Notes under the pieces: model-generated | What the model saw: the letters and a program-made list of their open reading frames with translations, nothing else | Told to the model about the DNA's origin: nothing | The model's database searches: none | Made by a program: the position numbers and the translations under genes | Shown: one piece after another, positions 18,183-33,908 of the stretch | How positions within the stretch are numbered: position 1 is the stretch's first letter | Layout: each line of letters opens with the position of its first letter | DNA from: Dyadobacter fermentans | Lineage (GTDB): Bacteria > Bacteroidota > Bacteroidia > Cytophagales > Spirosomataceae | Direction: 5' to 3' | NCBI RefSeq assembly: GCF_019924045.1 | Contig: NZ_JAHXBN010000015.1 | Span: forward strand, 1-64,000 | Length of the DNA stretch: 64,000 nucleotides

Positions 18183-19337
18183 TTAAACTGCTTCTGCTGT
18201 ACGTACCAGCTCAACCAGATCTCCGTCGTTTACTTCTTTCTTGATATCGGCTACTTCGAGGAACCGAGTGTACAGTTCGTCCAATGCAGCTTTTTCAAAG
18301 GAAAACCCAAGCAATTCGAGGCGGTGCTTCAATGCGTGGCGCCCGCTGCGAGCAGTCAGTACGATGTCGGATTTATCGACACCCACGTCCTGTGGGTTCA
18401 TAATTTCGTAGTTCAAATTGTTTTTCAGGAAGCCGTCCTGGTGAATACCCGACGAATGCGCGAATGCATTTCGCCCCACTATGGCTTTGTTCGCTTGCAC
18501 CGGCATACGCATCATTTTCGACACCAATTGGCTGGTCGGGTAAATGTGTTGCGTATTAATGCCCGTTTCAAGGCCCAGTTCCTGGTGCACTTTCAATGCC
18601 ATTACCACTTCTTCCAACGACGTGTTACCCGCGCGCTCGCCGATACCGTTGATGGTTACCTCCACCTGACGCGCCCCCTGATTGATACCTGCGATGGAAT
18701 TCGCGGTAGCCAAGCCGAGGTCGTTGTGGCAGTGGATAGAAATAGTGGCTTTATGAATATTCGAAACGTGTTCGAAAATGTATTTGATTTTATTTCCGTA
18801 CTCGTCTGGCAGGCAATAGCCAGTCGTGTCAGGAATGTTCACTACCGTTGCGCCGGCACCGATCACCGCTTCTACCAGTTGTGAAAGGAAAACGAGGTCC
18901 GCACGGCCTGCGTCTTCACAATAGAATTCCACATCCTCCACTTTGGTTTTGGCATATTTCGTAGCCGCGATCGCTCTTTCGATGATTTTCTCGCGGGTAG
19001 TATTGAACTTATGCTGGATGTGAATGTCGGAAGAACCGATACCTGTGTGGATCCGTGCCCTTTTGGCATACTGAAGTGCATCCGCAGCTGCGTCGATATC
19101 GCCTTGCACTGCACGTGAAAGCGCACAAATGATAGGCTCACGCACAGCTTTAGAGATTTCTACCACAGAACGAAAATCTCCGGGACTTGAAACCGGGAAA
19201 CCGGCTTCGATAATATCTACCCCCAGCTTTTCGAGTTGTGTAGCAACCACGATTTTTTCTTCTGTGGTCAATTGGCTGCCAGGAACCTGCTCGCCGTCTC
19301 GTAAAGTAGTGTCGAAGATCTGAACTCGATTACTCAT
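18183..19337 (-). CDS. leuA: 2-isopropylmalate synthase, short form without regulatory domain
   Basis: Condenses acetyl-CoA with 2-oxoisovalerate, the first committed step to leucine. The TIM-barrel catalytic domain shows [12 protein letters not shown] at residues 9-20 and the metal-binding [13 protein letters not shown]. The chain ends at 384 residues, after the helical linker subdomain ([20 protein letters not shown]), so the C-terminal LeuA dimerisation/regulatory domain that binds leucine in the roughly 520-residue E. coli type is absent. Loss of allosteric control is therefore inferred, while the transcript carries its own leucine-type attenuator upstream (19387-19500). It is the last gene of the locus but has a separate promoter. 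Confidence 0.93.
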
Positions 19338-19386: not shown

Positions 19387-19449
19387 AATATAAAACCCTT
19401 TCCTTGTCACGGGAAAGGGTCTGTAACTTATCAAAACATCACCTTTCCC
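19387..19449 (-). promoter_or_regulatory. leuA attenuator: antiterminator and terminator stems
   Basis: On the minus strand, right after the leader peptide stop, GGGAAAGG (19449-19442) can pair perfectly with CCTTTCCC (19418-19411). The alternative stem pairs ACCCTTTCC (19420-19412) with GGAAAGGGT (19403-19395) and runs into TTTATATT, a terminator. Bases 19418-19412 belong to both stems, so the structures exclude each other. This is the layout of ribosome-mediated attenuation: stalling at Leu codons would favour the antiterminator. A stem for the fully translated state (CCG/CGG) is weak. Confidence 0.8.
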
Positions 19450-19452
19450 GCC

Positions 19453-19500
19453 TCACGGTAGCTGTTGGAGATTGAGAATGAGGTTATCTTGTCGGCTCAT
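19453..19500 (-). CDS. leuA leader peptide, MSRQDNLILNLQQLP
   Basis: A 15-residue open frame lies ahead of leuA, with Leu at positions 7, 9, 11 and 14 (CTC, CTC, CTC, CTA) and Ile at 8. An in-frame ATG 6 nt upstream could extend it by two residues. The stop codon directly abuts the antiterminator arm, as required for a leader peptide that measures leucyl-tRNA supply. It is too short to be found by ordinary gene calling. Confidence 0.78.
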   Translation of the reverse strand: MSRQDNLILNLQQLP

Positions 19501-19509
19501 ATTCATGCT

Positions 19510-19521
19510 GCGAAATTTCGC
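19510..19521. promoter_or_regulatory. Palindrome GCGAAATTTCGC in the leuA leader
   Basis: A perfect 12-bp palindrome between the predicted promoter and the leader peptide. It begins 19 nt after the -7 box. The same 12 bases at the same distance occur in the ilvD leader (33846-33857). It could be an operator near the transcription start or a small 5' RNA stem (GCGA/UCGC with an AAUU loop). Confidence 0.7.
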
Positions 19522-19540
19522 TCACCGCGATTTTCTTCTG

Positions 19541-19571
19541 CAAAGAAAGCACAAGTTTTGAATGCAACAAA
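19541..19571 (-). promoter_or_regulatory. Predicted leuA promoter
   Basis: On the minus strand TTTG (19571-19568), a 19-nt spacer, then TTTCTTTG (19548-19541), one mismatch from the Bacteroidota -7 consensus TAnnTTTG. It stands just upstream of the palindrome and the leader peptide. No SD sequence is seen, as usual in this phylum. Confidence 0.65.
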
Positions 19572-22966: not shown

Positions 22967-22997
22967 GCTTTATGCCGTAAGCTTTAAGCTTTAGGCC
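22967..22997 (-). repeat. Left heptad array of the four-helix-bundle cassette
   Basis: Minus-strand units GCCTAAA, GCTTAAA, GCTTACG and GCATAAA, exactly 7 nt each. The first unit supplies the TAA stop of the gene at 22991-23350. The partner array at 23372-23402 has the opposite orientation and the same 31-nt length. Confidence 0.82.
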
Positions 22998-23350
22998 TTT
23001 TTTGTAATGCTTTTTTCTAGATTGTACAGCATTCTCTTTATCTGGTTGATCCTTTCGTTCAGTGACGAGTAATCCGTTTCTGAAAGATATTCCAAGTCTT
23101 TCGAGAGCTGCAAGAGATATTCGACTTCATGAGCGGAGCCCAAAGAGATATGTATAAATCTGGCAAATTCTGAGTCTGTTGTTCTGCCGCAACCTTCCGC
23201 CATATTCGTTGGTATTGAAACAGAGGCCCTCCTAATTTGCGAGGTTACGCCGTATGTTTCATTTGCCGGAAAATTTCGCGTTAGATTGTACACATCAAGA
23301 ACAAACTCATGGCTAATTCGCCATACTTCGTACTTCCTGAAATCTCTCAT
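22991..23350 (-). CDS. Four-helix-bundle protein (23S rRNA intervening-sequence family)
   Basis: A 119-residue protein with the family hallmarks: FRKYEVWRISHEFVLDVYNL at the start, TSQIRRASVSIPTNMAEGCG in the middle and a heptad-like helical C-terminus. The family was first noted inside intervening sequences of 23S rRNA genes; most members, including this one, lie elsewhere. A role in diversity-generating retroelements is known for the relative Avd, but no reverse transcriptase is present here. The gene and its two flanking inverted arrays fill the leuC-leuD gap, so it looks like an inserted cassette. Function unknown. Confidence 0.9.
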   Translation of the reverse strand: MRDFRKYEVWRISHEFVLDVYNLTRNFPANETYGVTSQIRRASVSIPTNMAEGCGRTTDSEFARFIHISLGSAHEVEYLLQLSKDLEYLSETDYSSLNERINQIKRMLYNLEKSITKKA

Positions 23351-24990: not shown

Positions 24991-25335
24991 TTATTTGGAG
25001 TTATTCAAAATTTCCTGCAAAGCGTCTTTGAGCGGAGGCAAATGCACTTCGATAATTCTCCAGACTATCTCATAATCAATGCCTGCGTAATCATGCACGA
25101 GAATGTGTCGTGATCGGATGATTCTCATCCATTCGATTTCAGGATATTCGTCGCGCGACAGTTTGGGGACACGGTTCGCCGCTTCGCCTAATACTTGCAA
25201 ATTTCTGATAACTGCATCCCGTGTTTTCCGATCGCCCAAGAATGATTCGAAATTCATTCCATCGGTATACTCCAAAATGGCGTCGATAGAATCGAGCATA
25301 TCCGACAACAAAATACTTGCCTGCCGCTCAGACAT
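24991..25335 (-). CDS. hepT: HepT-like ribonuclease toxin (DUF86)
   Basis: A 114-residue all-helical HEPN protein. The catalytic RX4HXY motif is present as RHILVHDY at about residues 76-83, including the Tyr that MntA modifies with AMP in characterised pairs. LGEAANRVP is another family marker. Its start overlaps the end of the nucleotidyltransferase gene (25328-25335), the usual antitoxin-then-toxin arrangement. It sits between the leucine genes and the AraC/ilvA end of the ilv operon. Confidence 0.9.
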   Translation of the reverse strand: MSERQASILLSDMLDSIDAILEYTDGMNFESFLGDRKTRDAVIRNLQVLGEAANRVPKLSRDEYPEIEWMRIIRSRHILVHDYAGIDYEIVWRIIEVHLPPLKDALQEILNNSK

Positions 25336-25669: not shown

Positions 25670-26518
25670 TCACCCCTGCCGCTTCGGCGTAGTCCCGTAC
25701 TTCTCTTTATAAGTCTTGATGAAATGCGAAACGCTCTCGTACCCAATCTCCGTACTGATCTCCGAGACATTCTTTGTACTGTTTCTCAACAAGAAATCCG
25801 CATAATCCAATCGCTTGTTTTTCAGCCACAATGCTGGTGAAGTATTGAACTCATCCTGAAAGTCGCGTTTGAATGCAGAAAGGCTGCGGCCCGAGAGCCG
25901 AGCGAGCTCATTCAATGTGAGGGGCTTTAAGTAATAGCTATTCATCAAAAACGAAAGATCGACCTTTTCGCCTTTGTAAAGGCTGTACAAAATACCCCGC
26001 AGCTGGTTTGAACTATCCAGCTCCATCAAATGCAGCAGCAGTTCCTGGAATTTCAGTCTCAGAAAGTGGTTCTTCAATTCCGTTCGTGAGCGGAAATAGG
26101 GAAATACGGATTGTATGAACTTTTCAAAGTTATCATCCGACTTCAAAAGCAAAATCGGGTATTCGACGGCTTCTGTGTCTTTTTGCGCATTAAAAAGCTC
26201 CGGATGCAGGCCTACGAATTCTTTCAGGAGCTTTTCGTCAAAAAAGAAAACCAAACTCTTGTAAGCTTCATGAATGGATTCCGACATTAAGTAAAAACCC
26301 CTCTGAATGAATAGAATATCCCCCTTTTCAACATGCACTTCCTGCGTCGGGCTGGTGAATTTCTTTTCACCTTCCAGGACCACAATCACCGCATGCTCCT
26401 CGAAAAACACATCGTATTTGGAAGGGTACACCTCGTTCCGATAGGCCACGAACGTCATATCCTGAATTTTCAGGGATTCGAATTCCTGGGAGCTGATGTC
26501 GGATGGTACGCGAAGCAT
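25670..26518 (-). CDS. AraC-family transcriptional regulator
   Basis: A 282-residue regulator: N-terminal cupin-like sensing half (about 20-130, HVEKGDILFIQRGFYLM) and a C-terminal AraC DNA-binding domain (about 180-280) with two helix-turn-helices (LNELARLSGRSLSAFKRDFQ and VSEISTEIGYESVSHFIKTY). It lies 15 nt after ilvA in the same direction, so it may be the last cistron of the ilv operon. The effector is unknown; a role in BCAA control is possible but rests on position only. Confidence 0.88.
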   Translation of the reverse strand: MLRVPSDISSQEFESLKIQDMTFVAYRNEVYPSKYDVFFEEHAVIVVLEGEKKFTSPTQEVHVEKGDILFIQRGFYLMSESIHEAYKSLVFFFDEKLLKEFVGLHPELFNAQKDTEAVEYPILLLKSDDNFEKFIQSVFPYFRSRTELKNHFLRLKFQELLLHLMELDSSNQLRGILYSLYKGEKVDLSFLMNSYYLKPLTLNELARLSGRSLSAFKRDFQDEFNTSPALWLKNKRLDYADFLLRNSTKNVSEISTEIGYESVSHFIKTYKEKYGTTPKRQG

Positions 26519-29543: not shown

Positions 29544-31304
29544 TTATTCCAAACGGATATCGGCTACACAAGCACCCGTTGGCACCATCGGGAACACGTT
29601 TTCTTCTTTCTCTACCAATACTTCCAGCAGGTAAGGCTTATCGGAAGCCAGCATGGTGTCGAGCGACGCGTGCAAGTCCTCACGTTTCGCGCAAGTGTGG
29701 CCGTCGATACCGAAACCTTTGGCAATCGTAATAAAATCAGGGTTTTGAAGCTCCACAAACGAGTAGCGTTTCTGGTGGAAAAGCTGTTGCCACTGACGTA
29801 CCATTCCGAGGAAGTTGTTGTTCAGGATGATAATCTTGACAGGCAGGCCGCTTTGTGCAATCGTACCTAATTCTTGAATGGTCATCTGGAAACAACCGTC
29901 GCCGATGATCGCAACCACTTCACGATCCGGCGCACCTACTTTGGCACCGAATGAGGCCGGCAATGCATAACCCATGGTTCCCAAACCACCCGAAGTAATG
30001 TACGAGCTAGGCTTTTTGAACTGATAGTAGCGCGCTGCCATCATCTGGTGCTGGCCGACGTCCGCCACGATCACCGCCTCGCCTTTGGTTTTATCCGAAA
30101 GCGTACGGATCACTTCCGCCATTTTGATTTTCTCCGTCGTAGGAGCCAGTTCAGGCTGCGTGATTTTCTCGTCTTCGATCGCATCGTACTTCTTGAATTC
30201 CGCGATCCAGGCTGCATGATTGTTCGCATTCACCAATGGAAGCAACTGCTCGAGCGCGATTTTGGCGTCGCCCACTACCGGCGCATCCGCTTTCACGATC
30301 TTGTCGATCTCAGCCGGGTCGATTTCAATGTGAACCACTTTCGCCTGTTTCGCATAGCGGCTCAAATCGCCGGTTACCCGGTCGTCGAAACGCATTCCGA
30401 CTGCGATAATGAGGTCACATTGGTTGGTTAGCACGTTGGTACCATAGTTACCGTGCATTCCCAGCCAGCCCATATAGTTAGGGTGGTCCACCGACATGGA
30501 GGAAAGTCCCAGCAATGTCGAAGCGGCAGGAATATCTGTTTTTTCGATGAAACGGATCAATTCCTGTTCCGCACCGGCAATCTGTACGCCGTGGCCTACG
30601 AAAAGGAACGGACGCTTCGCCTGGTTGATCAACTTCGCAGCTGCCGCCAATTGATCTTCTTTCGGCGCAAGGCGCGGGTGGTAGCTGAGCAAAGTCTCCG
30701 TCTTTTTATGTACGAAAGGCTTCGTCATCAGCTTCTGCTGCGCATCCTTGGTAATATCGATCAAAACCGGGCCCGGACGGCCTGATTTTGCTATATAAAA
30801 TGCTTTGGCAATAATTTCAGGGATTTCATCCGCATTGGTGACCTGGTAGTTCCATTTGGTAATAGGGATGGTAATACCCATCACATCGGTCTCCTGGAAT
30901 GCGTCCGTACCGAGTAAATGCGAAGCCACCTGACCGATGATGCAGACCATCGGTGTAGAGTCGATGATCGCATCGGCAATGCCCGTCACCAGGTTGGTAG
31001 CACCCGGCCCCGAAGTAACAAGGCAAACCCCTACCTCACCCGTAATGCGTGCAAAGCCTTCCGCCGCGTGTGCAGCCCCCTGCTCGTGACGCACGAGAAT
31101 GTGGTTGATCTGATCCTGATAGTCATAGATCGCATCGTACACCGGCATAATTGCGCCGCCCGGATAGCCGAAAATGGTTTTCACCCCTTCCGCAATCAGC
31201 GACTGGATCACCGCATGCGAGCCGTTGATCAGCTCCGGCTTGGCCACCGAAACCACCGGTTCCGAGCCCTGAATTGTTGCAGTTTGATTTTCATTAAATC
31301 CCAT
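29544..31304 (-). CDS. ilvB: Acetolactate synthase large (catalytic) subunit
   Basis: ThDP-dependent enzyme condensing two pyruvates, or pyruvate with 2-oxobutyrate. The 586 residues show the three expected domains: an N-terminal pyrimidine-binding domain with the catalytic Glu in RHEQGAAHAAEGFAR, a central domain, and the PP domain with GDGCFQMTIQELGTIAQ followed by NNNFLG. It precedes ilvN. A nucleotidyltransferase gene ends 14 nt upstream, between ilvD and ilvB. Confidence 0.97.
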   Translation of the reverse strand: MGFNENQTATIQGSEPVVSVAKPELINGSHAVIQSLIAEGVKTIFGYPGGAIMPVYDAIYDYQDQINHILVRHEQGAAHAAEGFARITGEVGVCLVTSGPGATNLVTGIADAIIDSTPMVCIIGQVASHLLGTDAFQETDVMGITIPITKWNYQVTNADEIPEIIAKAFYIAKSGRPGPVLIDITKDAQQKLMTKPFVHKKTETLLSYHPRLAPKEDQLAAAAKLINQAKRPFLFVGHGVQIAGAEQELIRFIEKTDIPAASTLLGLSSMSVDHPNYMGWLGMHGNYGTNVLTNQCDLIIAVGMRFDDRVTGDLSRYAKQAKVVHIEIDPAEIDKIVKADAPVVGDAKIALEQLLPLVNANNHAAWIAEFKKYDAIEDEKITQPELAPTTEKIKMAEVIRTLSDKTKGEAVIVADVGQHQMMAARYYQFKKPSSYITSGGLGTMGYALPASFGAKVGAPDREVVAIIGDGCFQMTIQELGTIAQSGLPVKIIILNNNFLGMVRQWQQLFHQKRYSFVELQNPDFITIAKGFGIDGHTCAKREDLHASLDTMLASDKPYLLEVLVEKEENVFPMVPTGACVADIRLE

Positions 31305-31318
31305 GACCTCTATTTTAT

Positions 31319-31783
31319 TTAGTCGGATGAATTTTCAAGATTCTCAATGTCATTTATATCTCTCGGCCTTCCTGCCGCCTTCTTTGCCGTGATCAGATCT
31401 TTGTAATGTATCAATCTGATTTTTAAACCCTCTACTGCATGATCAGCGGCATTCTTGTACGCTTCTTCGAATTCCAGCCCTTTCAACTTCGTGATTAAAT
31501 CGATCGAAACGGGCACCCGGCCAAATGTAAATACATCAAATTGCGGGTTATGCAGGAAGTTCGTCTCTGTCATATCAAATAGCGGCATTCCAAACTGTTC
31601 GAATGCATTCGCAATCCTCCGATAGTTTTCACTCGTTTTCCTAACCCATATATCCATGTCGCCGGTTGTTCGGGAATAGCCATGCAGGATTACCGAGTAG
31701 CCGCCGACCAGAATATATTCCACTTCACATTCATTGAATGACTTCAAGAAATCCTGAAAATCATCATTGAAAATATTTCCCAT
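31319..31783 (-). CDS. DUF6036-like nucleotidyltransferase
   Basis: A 154-residue protein with a nucleotidyltransferase core: VEYILVGGYSVILHGYSRTT and GDMDIWV (the DxD metal pair), then SIDLITKL as probable third acidic position. The GS motif is replaced by GGYS, as in AbiEii-type and DUF6036 proteins. Its ATG overlaps the stop of the preceding 70-residue gene (TAATG), so the two are translated together. The pair is placed inside the ilv operon, between ilvD and ilvB; toxin-antitoxin or abortive-infection function is an inference from fold and layout. Confidence 0.83.
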   Translation of the reverse strand: MGNIFNDDFQDFLKSFNECEVEYILVGGYSVILHGYSRTTGDMDIWVRKTSENYRRIANAFEQFGMPLFDMTETNFLHNPQFDVFTFGRVPVSIDLITKLKGLEFEEAYKNAADHAVEGLKIRLIHYKDLITAKKAAGRPRDINDIENLENSSD

Positions 31784-32008: not shown

Positions 32009-33694
32009 TTATGCCTCGTCAGTCACGCAACCTTCGCTGGCCGACTTCACGGTTCTGATATATCTTCCCAGCATACCTTTTGTAAAGCGTGGCGCAGGTT
32101 GTACCCAGGCTGCTTTGCGGGTCGCCATTTCTTCGTCGGAAATGTGCAGGGTCAGCACGCGGGTGTTGGCATCGATAGAAATACGGTCGCCGTCTTTAAC
32201 CAATGCAATCGGGCCGCCGTCAAACGCTTCCGGGGTAATATGGCCTACCACGAAACCGTGCGTACCGCCAGAAAAACGACCGTCGGTGATCAATGCGATC
32301 TTGTCGCCCAATCCCGCTCCCATTACCGCCGAAGTAGGTTTCAGCATTTCCGACATTCCCGGACCACCTTTCGGTCCTGCATTGCGGATTACCACCACGT
32401 GTCCGGCCTTAATTTCGCCTTTGGCAAGCATTTCGATGATCTCCGTTTCGTGCTCGCACACTTTCGCTTCCCCATCGAATGTCAGACCTTCCTTGCCGGT
32501 GATCTTCGCAACCGCACCTTCGGGAGCCAGATTACCATAAAGTACCTGGATGTGCCCTGTCGGCTTGATCGGAGTTTCAATCGGGAACACCATTTTTTGC
32601 GTTTCAAAATTCAAGTCGGGAGCCTCGGCGAGGTTTTCAGCAACAGTTTTACCTGTTACCGTAATGCAATCTCCGTGAATCAGTCCTACTGAATACAAAT
32701 ACTTGGTAACAGCAGGTACACCACCGATTTCCAGGATATCCTCCATGAAGTATTTACCGCTAGGCTTCAAATCAGCGATAAACGGCGTGCGGTCTGAAAT
32801 CGCCTGAATGTCGTCCAATGTCAATGGAATGCCGGCTGCGCGAGCGATCGCCAGGTAATGCAATGCCGCATTCGTAGATCCACCCAGCGCCATTACCACC
32901 GTCAATGCATTTTCCAGTGACTTTTTGGTGATAATATCTTTCGGAGTAATGTTCAGTTCGAGCAACTTCTTCATCGCCGCACCGATCTTCTTGCATTCTT
33001 CCTGCTTGCCTTCGTGTGTAGCCGGGTACGAGCTGCTGAACGGCAAGCTCAGTCCCATTGCCTCAATCGAAGAAGCCATCGTGTTGGCAGTGTACATACC
33101 ACCGCAAGCGCCCTGGCCAGGGATCGAATTTTGAATTACACCTTTATAATCTTCGTCAGAAATGTTATTGGCAAACTTCTTACCTAATGCTTCGAATGCT
33201 GAAACGATGTCGAGTTTCTGTCCTTTATAATGTCCCGAACGGATCGTTCCACCATACACCATAATAGCCGGACGGTCGAGGCGCGCCATGGCCATAATAG
33301 CGCCAGGCATGTTTTTATCACAACCCACCACCGCGATCACGCCGTCGTACCATTGTGCAGCCACTACGGTTTCGATCGAATCCGCGATAATGTCGCGGCT
33401 TGGCAGCGAGTAACGCATACCGTCGTTCCCGTTGGTCATACCATCCGAAACACCGATCGTGTTGAAAATCAGGCCCACCATGTCGTTGGCATTCACGCCT
33501 TGTTTCACATACACCGACAAGCCATTCAGGTGCATGTTGCAAGGGTTACCTTCATAACCTGTGCTGGCAATCCCGATCTGGGGTTTAACAAAGTCTTCTT
33601 CTTTCAAACCAATTCCATAAAGCATCGCCTGTGCGGCCGGATTGGTTACTTCCTGGGTAAGGGTCTTCGAAAATCTGTTTAATTCTGTCGCCAT
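32009..33694 (-). CDS. ilvD: Dihydroxy-acid dehydratase
   Basis: Fe-S enzyme that dehydrates the dihydroxy acids to the 2-oxo precursors of valine, leucine and isoleucine. The 561 residues contain the cluster cysteines in [10 protein letters not shown] and [15 protein letters not shown] and the C-terminal [16 protein letters not shown]. It is the first structural gene of the ilv operon and is preceded by the Leu/Ile/Val leader peptide and attenuator at 33709-33823. Confidence 0.97.
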
Positions 33695-33708: not shown

Positions 33709-33786
33709 AAAATAAAAACACCCCACTCGGTTAGGTGAGTGAGGTGCCAGTTATGTGCTATCATCCCACTCACGCTTACGGCGTGA
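33709..33786 (-). promoter_or_regulatory. ilvD operon attenuator: pause, antiterminator and terminator stems
   Basis: Three alternative stems are readable on the minus strand. Stem 1:2 pairs TCACGC (33786-33781) with GCGTGA (33775-33770) around the leader stop. The antiterminator pairs GTGAGTGGG (33773-33765) with CTCACTCAC (33743-33735), nine pairs with one G-T. The terminator pairs CACCTCACTC (33746-33737) with GAGTGGGGTG (33728-33719), ten pairs with one G-T and an 8-nt loop, followed by TTTTTATTTT (33718-33709). Successive stems share bases, so they exclude one another, as in enterobacterial ilv and leu attenuators. The ilvD ATG lies 14 nt beyond the T run. Confidence 0.88.
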
Positions 33787-33823
33787 CGATAATTAGAACG
33801 GGGACGATAAGAGTCAGTTTCAT
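33776..33823 (-). CDS. ilv operon leader peptide, MKLTLIVPVLIIVTP
   Basis: A 15-residue frame with three Leu, three Ile and three Val plus two Thr, a composition expected of a leader peptide that senses all branched-chain aminoacyl-tRNAs. It ends in the loop of the first stem, so a ribosome at the stop codon would cover the antiterminator arm and permit termination. No SD sequence is visible. Confidence 0.88.
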   Translation of the reverse strand: MKLTLIVPVLIIVTP

Positions 33824-33844
33824 TTTAGCGGAACATTTAAGTCT

Positions 33845-33858
33845 AGCGAAATTTCGCT
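33845..33858. promoter_or_regulatory. Palindrome AGCGAAATTTCGCT in the ilvD leader
   Basis: A perfect 14-bp palindrome whose 12-bp core is identical to that at 19510-19521. The core begins 19 nt after the predicted -7 box, as at leuA. It is a candidate operator or 5' RNA element shared by the two attenuated BCAA transcripts. Confidence 0.7.
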
Positions 33859-33876: not shown

Positions 33877-33908
33877 CAAATTAGAAGCCATTCTTTTTAT
33901 TTTCCAAA
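33877..33908 (-). promoter_or_regulatory. Predicted ilvD operon promoter
   Basis: Minus strand TTTG (33908-33905), 20-nt spacer, CTAATTTG (33884-33877), close to the Bacteroidota consensus TTTG/TAnnTTTG. It is placed so that transcription would start upstream of the palindrome, the leader peptide and the attenuator. The rest of 33909-34018 holds the divergent upstream region of murQ. Confidence 0.6.

Follow-up and report, generated by a model that had tools for sequence, protein, structure and literature searches.

A predicted ribosome-mediated attenuator before ilvD in Dyadobacter, its counterpart before leuA, and a palindrome upstream of both

Main finding

Directly upstream of the ilvD operon of Dyadobacter, a genus of Spirosomataceae (Cytophagales, Bacteroidota), positions 33709-33823 of the 64,000-nucleotide stretch of DNA analyzed here (the window) very probably form a classical ribosome-mediated transcription attenuator, judging by sequence and conservation. 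As a conserved structure, the element is real, and its mechanism is ordinary and of a known kind. A second predicted attenuator, absent from the preliminary description of this DNA, occupies positions 19387-19506 before leuA. The novel part of the analysis is a palindrome, likewise missing from that description, that lies upstream of both leaders as a candidate operator, together with the candidate regulon to which it may belong.

Anatomy of the predicted ilvD attenuator

The preliminary description had proposed a 15-codon frame with nine Leu, Ile, or Val residues, three overlapping stems, and a T-rich run of ten bases, and each of these parts was found where it had been placed. Read base by base on the minus strand, the frame extends from an ATG at 33823 to a TAA at 33776-33778. 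The pause stem pairs 33781-33786 with 33770-33775 and carries the stop codon in its loop, the antiterminator has nine pairs (one of them G-U), and the terminator has ten pairs, or 12 with the terminator scan. The parts are as follows.

33776..33823, minus strand: leader frame MKLTLIVPVLIIVTP and TAA, with 9 of 15 residues L/I/V (sequence)
33770..33786, minus strand: pause stem, segments 1:2, TCACGC/GCGTGA (sequence; alignment)
33735..33773, minus strand: antiterminator, segments 2:3, GTGAGTGGG (33765-33773) with CTCACTCAC (33735-33743) (sequence; fold against shuffles)
33719..33746, minus strand: terminator hairpin, segments 3:4, CACCTCACTC (33737-33746) with GAGTGGGGTG (33719-33728) (sequence; terminator scan)
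33709..33718, minus strand: T tract of the terminator, TTTTTATTTT (sequence; terminator scan)

Antiterminator and terminator cannot form together, and the terminator ends in a T tract, as ribosome-mediated attenuators require. For the whole leader, the folding energy is -38.9 kcal/mol (z -3.88), and only 1 of 200 dinucleotide shuffles folded as well. When pieces were folded alone against shuffles, the terminator gave a z of -4.79 and the antiterminator a z of -2.94; the 5' half, which includes the pause stem, did no better than chance when folded alone (z -1.37). No Shine-Dalgarno sequence was seen by eye before the leader.

Past the attenuator, the genes follow on the same strand in the order ilvD, a nucleotidyltransferase-like gene, ilvB, ilvN, ilvC, ilvA, an AraC-type gene, a HepT-like gene, leuC, a 23S-IVP-like gene, leuD, a citramalate synthase-like gene, leuB, and leuA. 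Family scans were made for ilvD, ilvB, and leuA, for the citramalate synthase-like gene, and for four genes that are small or regulatory, while the genes that we take to be ilvN, ilvC, ilvA, leuC, leuD, and leuB were named from their sequence. The genes behind the leaders make the amino acids that would be sensed, with ilvD and ilvB behind the first leader and leuA behind a Leu-rich one.

32009..33694, minus strand: ilvD, dihydroxy-acid dehydratase, first gene past the attenuator (TIGR00110, 710 bits, cut-off 618)
31319-31783, minus strand: nucleotidyltransferase-like gene (DUF6036) inside the branched-chain amino acid (BCAA) cluster (family scan)
29544..31304, minus strand: ilvB, acetolactate synthase large subunit (TIGR00118, 736 bits, cut-off 538)
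25670-26518, minus strand: AraC/ExsA-type regulator gene inside the cluster, possibly a further regulator (family scan)
24991-25335, minus strand: HepT-like gene inside the BCAA cluster (family scan)
22991-23350, minus strand: 23S-IVP-like gene inside the BCAA cluster (family scan)
18183..19337, minus strand: leuA, 2-isopropylmalate synthase (NF002086, 605 bits, cut-off 532)

Conservation among relatives

ilvD was searched in 59 genomes, 50 of which matched, and in 222 Spirosomataceae genomes, with matches in 211. Upstream DNA was read for 46 of the 48 genus genomes (G110 and G114 were left out), for 39 loci elsewhere in the family, for 13 loci of other families of the order, and for 40 of the 60 rows of a class sample; one of the 40 family loci fetched (L068) was dropped as cut by a contig end, and the order match G046 was left out. 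The detector called for a terminator, a competing antiterminator, and a frame with at least 40% Leu, Ile, or Val, with dinucleotide shuffles as the control. All three features were found together at 41/46 genus loci (0/276 shuffles), at 10/39 loci of other family genera (0/312), at 1/13 loci in other families of the order (0/104), and at 1/40 class-sample loci (0/320), the last being a genome of the same order. Both stems with the frame criterion dropped were found at 44/46 genus loci (1/276 shuffles) and at 12/39, 1/13, and 2/40 of the other sets. The detector also passes 4/42 loci outside the family in a named set, a count that has no shuffle control and includes one locus (L316) that looks weak; the set may overlap the earlier samples, and family was split from nonfamily by an identity of 75% or more plus the title. 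Since ilvD need not head its operon outside the family, the counts there are lower bounds. Different-looking leaders rich in Ile and Val, followed by terminators, were seen before ilvD at L310, L322, and L334, which come from Sinomicrobium oceani, an Ignavibacteriae MAG, and Robertkochia solimangrovi, respectively.

The five genus failures are of two kinds. L022, L028, and L030 have both stems and frames that fall below the 40% threshold (5/16, 4/12, and 6/16 L/I/V), whereas L010 and L034 are without any leader. A covariance model, R1, was built from 52 leaders (44 from the genus and eight from other genera) and, at E up to 0.01, matches 76 of the 222 family genomes, namely 46/48 in the genus and 30/174 elsewhere, the weakest of them near the cut-off. 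These genus matches bear out the expectation that frame and stems would be conserved in relatives, and they include G110 and G114, both of which lie outside the training leaders. The two misses, G009 (D. luticola) and G014 (Dyadobacter sp. CY323), are the genomes of the loci without a leader; ilvD is present in both and its attenuator absent, and both retain the leuA leader (L133 and L130). Neither was an attenuator found at any of the seven Spirosoma-like ilvD loci tested.

Covariation was tallied on the 52-sequence leader alignment with 500 shuffles. In the terminator, 97.3% of cells are paired and 11 cells are changed on both sides (shuffled mean 1.9, with 0/500 as high), and in the pause stem, 94.2% of cells are paired with eight compensatory cells (shuffled mean 1.7, again 0/500 as high). 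The two-sided change falls in only two pairs of each stem, which 131 (terminator) and 97 (pause stem) of the 500 shuffles reach, and 498/500 shuffles show more extra pair types than the terminator does. The compensatory cells are a few events passed down to many species. Sliding the pause stem by -2 gave 16 two-sided cells against the eight observed, yet only 45% of cells were then paired, and slid versions of the terminator were at most 57% paired. The seven core pairs of the antiterminator are 99.5% paired and nearly invariant, so this stem draws no support from covariation. The compensatory changes that had been predicted for the stems were therefore seen, to a modest extent, in the pause stem and terminator and hardly at all in the antiterminator; we take the covariation in the former two as modest support on top of strong conservation. 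An outer helix of the 1:2 hairpin in the minimum-energy fold, which would pair codons with GGGATGATAG, was dropped as too variable, with pairs that change often and many cells unpaired, and the claim is limited to the inner six pairs.

Leader peptides and the second predicted attenuator before leuA

The peptide sequences of the ilvD leaders drift strongly among species. The stop codon nevertheless stays within the loop of the pause stem, or is formed by the TGA in GTGAG, at 44/44 genus loci with a leader. In 43 ilvD leaders, picked by eye from related species that are not independent, L (133), I (116), and V (104) make up 53% of 662 residues; the three genus loci left out of the 46 are L010 and L034, which have no leader, and L058, which starts with TTG. 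The rare Leu codon CTA accounts for 36.8% of the 133 Leu codons in these leaders against 3.8% of 477 in 15 genes of the window. A bias toward GTC in the leaders may come partly from the stem sequence GTCACGC instead of codon choice.

A near-copy of the palindrome at 19509-19522 led the search to the leuA leader, the parts of which are given here.

19453..19506, minus strand: leuA leader frame MNMSRQDNLILNLQQLP and TGA (sequence; relatives)
19409..19451, minus strand: leuA antiterminator GCGGGAAAGG/CCTTTCCCGT (sequence; relatives)
19387..19419, minus strand: leuA terminator CCCTTTCC...GGAAAGGG and TTTTATATT (sequence; relatives)

leuA was matched in 37 genus genomes, and 30 loci were read. The palindrome core AGCGAAWWTTCGC and a terminator are both present at 30/30, and an antiterminator plus a frame at a looser threshold of 25% L/I/V was found at 26/30. 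Among 300 shuffles, a terminator arose in 11, a terminator plus antiterminator in none, and all three features in none; at the strict 40% threshold, 12/30 leuA leaders pass against 0/300 shuffles. The putative control codons of this leader are Leu-rich with some Ile and almost no Val: 29 of the 30 leaders (L137 was unmatched), likewise picked by eye, hold L 129, I 48, and V 3 among 433 residues and are also rich in Asn and Gln. In our view, no single observation argues more strongly for the mechanism than this fit, at both leaders, between residue makeup and the enzyme encoded downstream.

Two other explanations would leave the leader peptide without its sensing role. Since T-boxes and metabolite riboswitches also place a terminator ahead of a biosynthetic operon, such an RNA could govern termination with the short frame incidental, but this is scarcely credible here. 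Rfam has no family at the gathering threshold in the window, and a search of the leader region at E up to 10 returned no leader family and three hits to unrelated families of eukaryotes or viruses, none of which came near its cut-off. In the alignment, conservation of the element, which is about 115 nt long, is concentrated in the stems, around the stop codon, and in the T tract, and the composition of the frame tracks the downstream gene. A T-box, a riboswitch, and the known Rfam amino-acid leader families were all dropped for want of support, with no match for L122 or L001 up to E 0.1. It is also very improbable that the frame is an ordinary small-protein gene with its own terminator, ilvD being served by another promoter and the peptide having a role in trans or none. 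Bacterial intergenic regions often hold short frames and terminators, and the peptide is hydrophobic, but its sequence drifts while L/I/V richness, stop position, and stems persist, and the 24 nt between the terminator stem and the ATG of ilvD in the window leave no room for a start with its TTTG/TAnnTTTG promoter.

The upstream palindrome

A promoter-like pair and a palindrome precede each leader, and at ilvD an additional half-site follows.

33905..33908, minus strand: -33 element TTTG, Bacteroidota-type promoter, predicted (sequence; spacing in relatives)
33877..33883, minus strand: -7 element TAATTTG, predicted (sequence; spacing in relatives)
33845..33858, no strand: perfect palindrome AGCGAAATTTCGCT, candidate operator (conservation)
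33827..33833, minus strand: putative extra half-site TTCCGCT, 18 nt downstream of the right arm of the palindrome
19568..19571, minus strand: -33 element TTTG before leuA, predicted (spacing to palindrome)
19541..19544, minus strand: -7 element TTTG before leuA, predicted (spacing to palindrome)
19509..19522, no strand: second palindrome, 13/14 matches, before leuA (sequence match)

We take the TTTG ... TAATTTG pair to be a promoter of the Bacteroidota type from its consensus. The possibility of a transcription start downstream of 33823 was checked by sequence, and the promoter-like pair is predicted upstream of the leader. Spacing is tight in the genus: at ilvD, the two TTTG or TTTC motifs end 46 nt and 18 nt ahead of the palindrome at 46/46 loci, and at leuA, they end 45 and 18 nt ahead of it at 25/30 loci and 44 and 17 nt ahead of it at the other five. 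The half-site reads TTACGCT in many relatives and is absent from some.

An exact copy of AGCGAAATTTCGCT occurs once in the 8.0 Mb genome, at 33845-33858. The pattern AGCGAAWWTTCGCT was found in 152/222 family genomes (single copy in about 120 of the 152), among them 48/48 of the genus, including the two without the ilvD attenuator, and 36/36 of Spirosoma (g54); its reversed control was found in 13/222, all counts by eye. Upstream of ilvD, a strict palindrome with any six A/T in its center is present at 46/46 genus loci and 21/39 other family loci, or 31/39 of the latter with relaxed arms. Outside the family, the strict form was found at 0/13 order, 0/40 class-sample, and 0/42 named-set loci, and the reversed control gave 0 upstream of ilvD in the genus, other-family-genera, order, and class sets. 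The palindrome stands without an attenuator in G009, in G014, and at the 7/7 Spirosoma-like ilvD loci; L010 and L034 keep the palindrome along with the promoter-like elements, and the stretch between palindrome and ilvD differs between them. The putative operator, kept in two Dyadobacter species that lack the ilvD attenuator, appears to be the more stable element of the two.

The palindrome is probably a DNA operator that sets initiation upstream of both leaders. An RNA hairpin in the 5' untranslated region would suit its position, which lies in the expected 5' UTR, and AGCGA/UCGCU could give a five-pair stem, but we consider this reading unlikely. A right arm of CACT breaks the RNA stem uncompensated at L061, L062, L063, L065, L066, L069, and L076 (six other genera), and in other genera copies of the palindrome occupy the space between divergently oriented genes or neighbor unrelated ones. 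The center is A/T at 46/46 genus loci, although elsewhere the search patterns themselves demanded A/T.

Candidate regulator and regulon

To look at the neighbors of the palindrome, 20 loci around its copies were read in 10 multicopy genomes, about two-thirds of the places listed. In other genera, copies adjoin, besides ilvD and leuA, what we take to be a malate synthase gene (aceB) with a divergent XRE-type regulator gene. Other genes beside copies we take to be pckA-, gltB- (glutamate synthase), peptide transporter-, and acyl-CoA dehydrogenase-like, and one further copy lies beside what is presumably a TonB/carboxypeptidase-like gene. The regulator combines an XRE helix-turn-helix with an IrrE-like domain (Peptidase_M78), scoring 49 bits with PF01381 and 28.3 bits with PF06114 in a domain scan of the G138 protein, with which the Dyadobacter regulator (G000:C17:382970-384394) was compared by alignment. 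Its likeness to NCBIfam RamB is distant, at 49.3 bits against a cut-off of 700. The stretch xGLSxSYxxEIEKGxKYPK of the helix-turn-helix is common to 11/11 aligned sequences. As a separate observation, the C-terminus of the RamB-like regulator (L247-L256, L108) has conserved CERC...C cysteines, possibly a metal or cluster site.

The regulator is present in 177/222 family genomes and in 48/48 of the genus. The palindrome occurs in 150/177 genomes with the regulator against 2/45 without it, an association by Fisher tests that is phylogenetically confounded, for these tests ignore phylogeny, the regulator-free 45 were derived by subtraction, and 38/45 come from one genus (g23). Within g53, the palindrome is present in the only genome that encodes the regulator and missing from the five that do not; it sits there at the regulator gene, not at ilvD. 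Autoregulation in Dyadobacter was considered and set aside, since no good palindrome precedes the regulator gene in the 10 genus upstream regions read, where the best site is an 11/14 match in 5/10. The link to the regulator in Dyadobacter consequently rests on co-occurrence and on other genera.

A RamB-like protein as the binder of the palindrome is thus a lead, not proof. We tentatively suggest, as a possibility to which we would give somewhat less than even weight, that a RamB/ScfR-like regulator binds AGCGAAWWTTCGCT and ties ilvD and leuA to acetyl-CoA and gluconeogenic genes while the leaders tune ilvD and leuA. The regulon would then hold aceB, pckA, gltB, acyl-CoA dehydrogenase, and the regulator's own gene, though not all in one genus, and the separate leaders would tune ilvD to Leu, Ile, and Val and leuA mainly to Leu. 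If the palindrome is bound by a RamB-like protein, BCAA synthesis would come under the control of central carbon metabolism; no report of such RamB-like control of BCAA synthesis is among the literature matches listed.

Proposed mechanism at ilvD

In the proposed mechanism, RNA polymerase would start upstream at the TTTG/TAATTTG promoter with a ribosome trailing through the leader frame. With charged Leu, Ile, and Val tRNAs plentiful, the ribosome would run on to the stop codon, which lies in the pause loop or next to it, and cover segment 2, and with segment 2 covered, the 3:4 terminator would form and transcription would end near 33709. Should one of these tRNAs run short, the ribosome would stall on the control codons and mask segment 1, in which case segment 2 would pair with segment 3 and allow read-through into ilvD. 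A leader that went untranslated would fold into 1:2 and 3:4, and transcription would stop. Upstream of both leaders, the palindrome would set initiation as an operator, which would give two layers of control at each promoter.

We infer all four of leader translation, the start site, charged-tRNA sensing, and termination from sequence comparisons. Observed directly are the frame and the stems that exclude each other, which are conserved and to some extent covary, and a leader composition that matches the gene behind it, with Leu, Ile, and Val at ilvD and Leu with some Ile at leuA. Leaders with control codons in the enterobacterial ilv/leu style sense charged tRNA, and the preliminary description had suggested tRNA-level control of all BCAA synthesis. 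A leader mechanism for ilvD is upheld as a prediction, but "all" is too wide because leuA has its own, differently composed leader and two species are without the ilvD attenuator.

Ribosome-mediated attenuation requires a ribosome close behind RNA polymerase, and Bacteroidota genes are mostly without Shine-Dalgarno sites. A conserved pair of predicted attenuators in one cluster, with control codons fitting each gene, amounts to comparative evidence of transcription-translation coupling there. The pair also offers a reporter for a direct test of coupling in such a phylum, and D. luticola and Dyadobacter sp. CY323, where ilvD has no attenuator, provide a ready comparison.

Relation to known systems

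The ilvD leader resembles the enterobacterial ilvL and leuL leaders in its control-codon frame, alternative stems, terminator with T tract, and BCAA operon target, and the CTA enrichment is likewise a trait of leu leaders. Attenuation has also been the subject of comparative work. The ilvBNC attenuator of Corynebacterium glutamicum, as far as the available text describes it, has the same layout and a BCAA operon target (PMC11857589). The leaders described here, compared with these systems by their features, differ from both in having 15-17 codons, no Rfam match, and a place in another phylum, and in forming two separate leaders of different residue makeup in one cluster.

Closer to Dyadobacter, transcriptome data from Flavobacterium psychrophilum gave strong hints of attenuation by leader peptides ahead of operons for amino-acid biosynthesis; this is the same phylum and a different family, and the main text, in the part available, holds 0 mentions of ilv genes (PMC9723704). 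Short frames reminiscent of leader peptides are noted for Bacteroides in the available text of another study (PMC7366714). No report of a BCAA attenuator in Bacteroidota is among the literature matches listed, a coverage that leaves out most subscription journals, and within this coverage, the ilvD attenuator sits in a group with little documentation. The value added by our analysis is the leader pair with different residue makeup plus the operator-like palindrome with a candidate regulator. The palindrome as a control site is likewise absent from the matches listed, where its core occurs in papers on other subjects. The likeness to RamB/ScfR lies in the helix-turn-helix with an IrrE-like domain and in a site by malate synthase and, in other genera, by the regulator gene, whereas the available text on the Paracoccus protein describes two boxes 18 bp apart and no BCAA target (PMC10370305).

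Two further biosynthetic genes were viewed by eye, and one of them, trpE-like, has a third leader of this type, which counts in favor of the attenuator reading. Upstream of hisG, where the preceding frame ends about 50 nt away, no attenuator was seen. The Bacteroid-trp RNA (RF01692) is, we presume, an attenuator. It has been described, in the text available, as a candidate cis-regulatory RNA of Bacteroidetes (PMC2864571), and it differs from the present leaders in concerning trp, not BCAA. A trpE-like gene in the same genome (L243, G000:C121; TIGR00564, 402 bits against a cut-off of 518) has a leader that found no match in Rfam at the E 0.1 threshold, though to the eye the arrangement upstream of 23004 on the minus strand is plain: a WWW leader, MKLFNTIWWWRTYPSKMDK, followed by a terminator.
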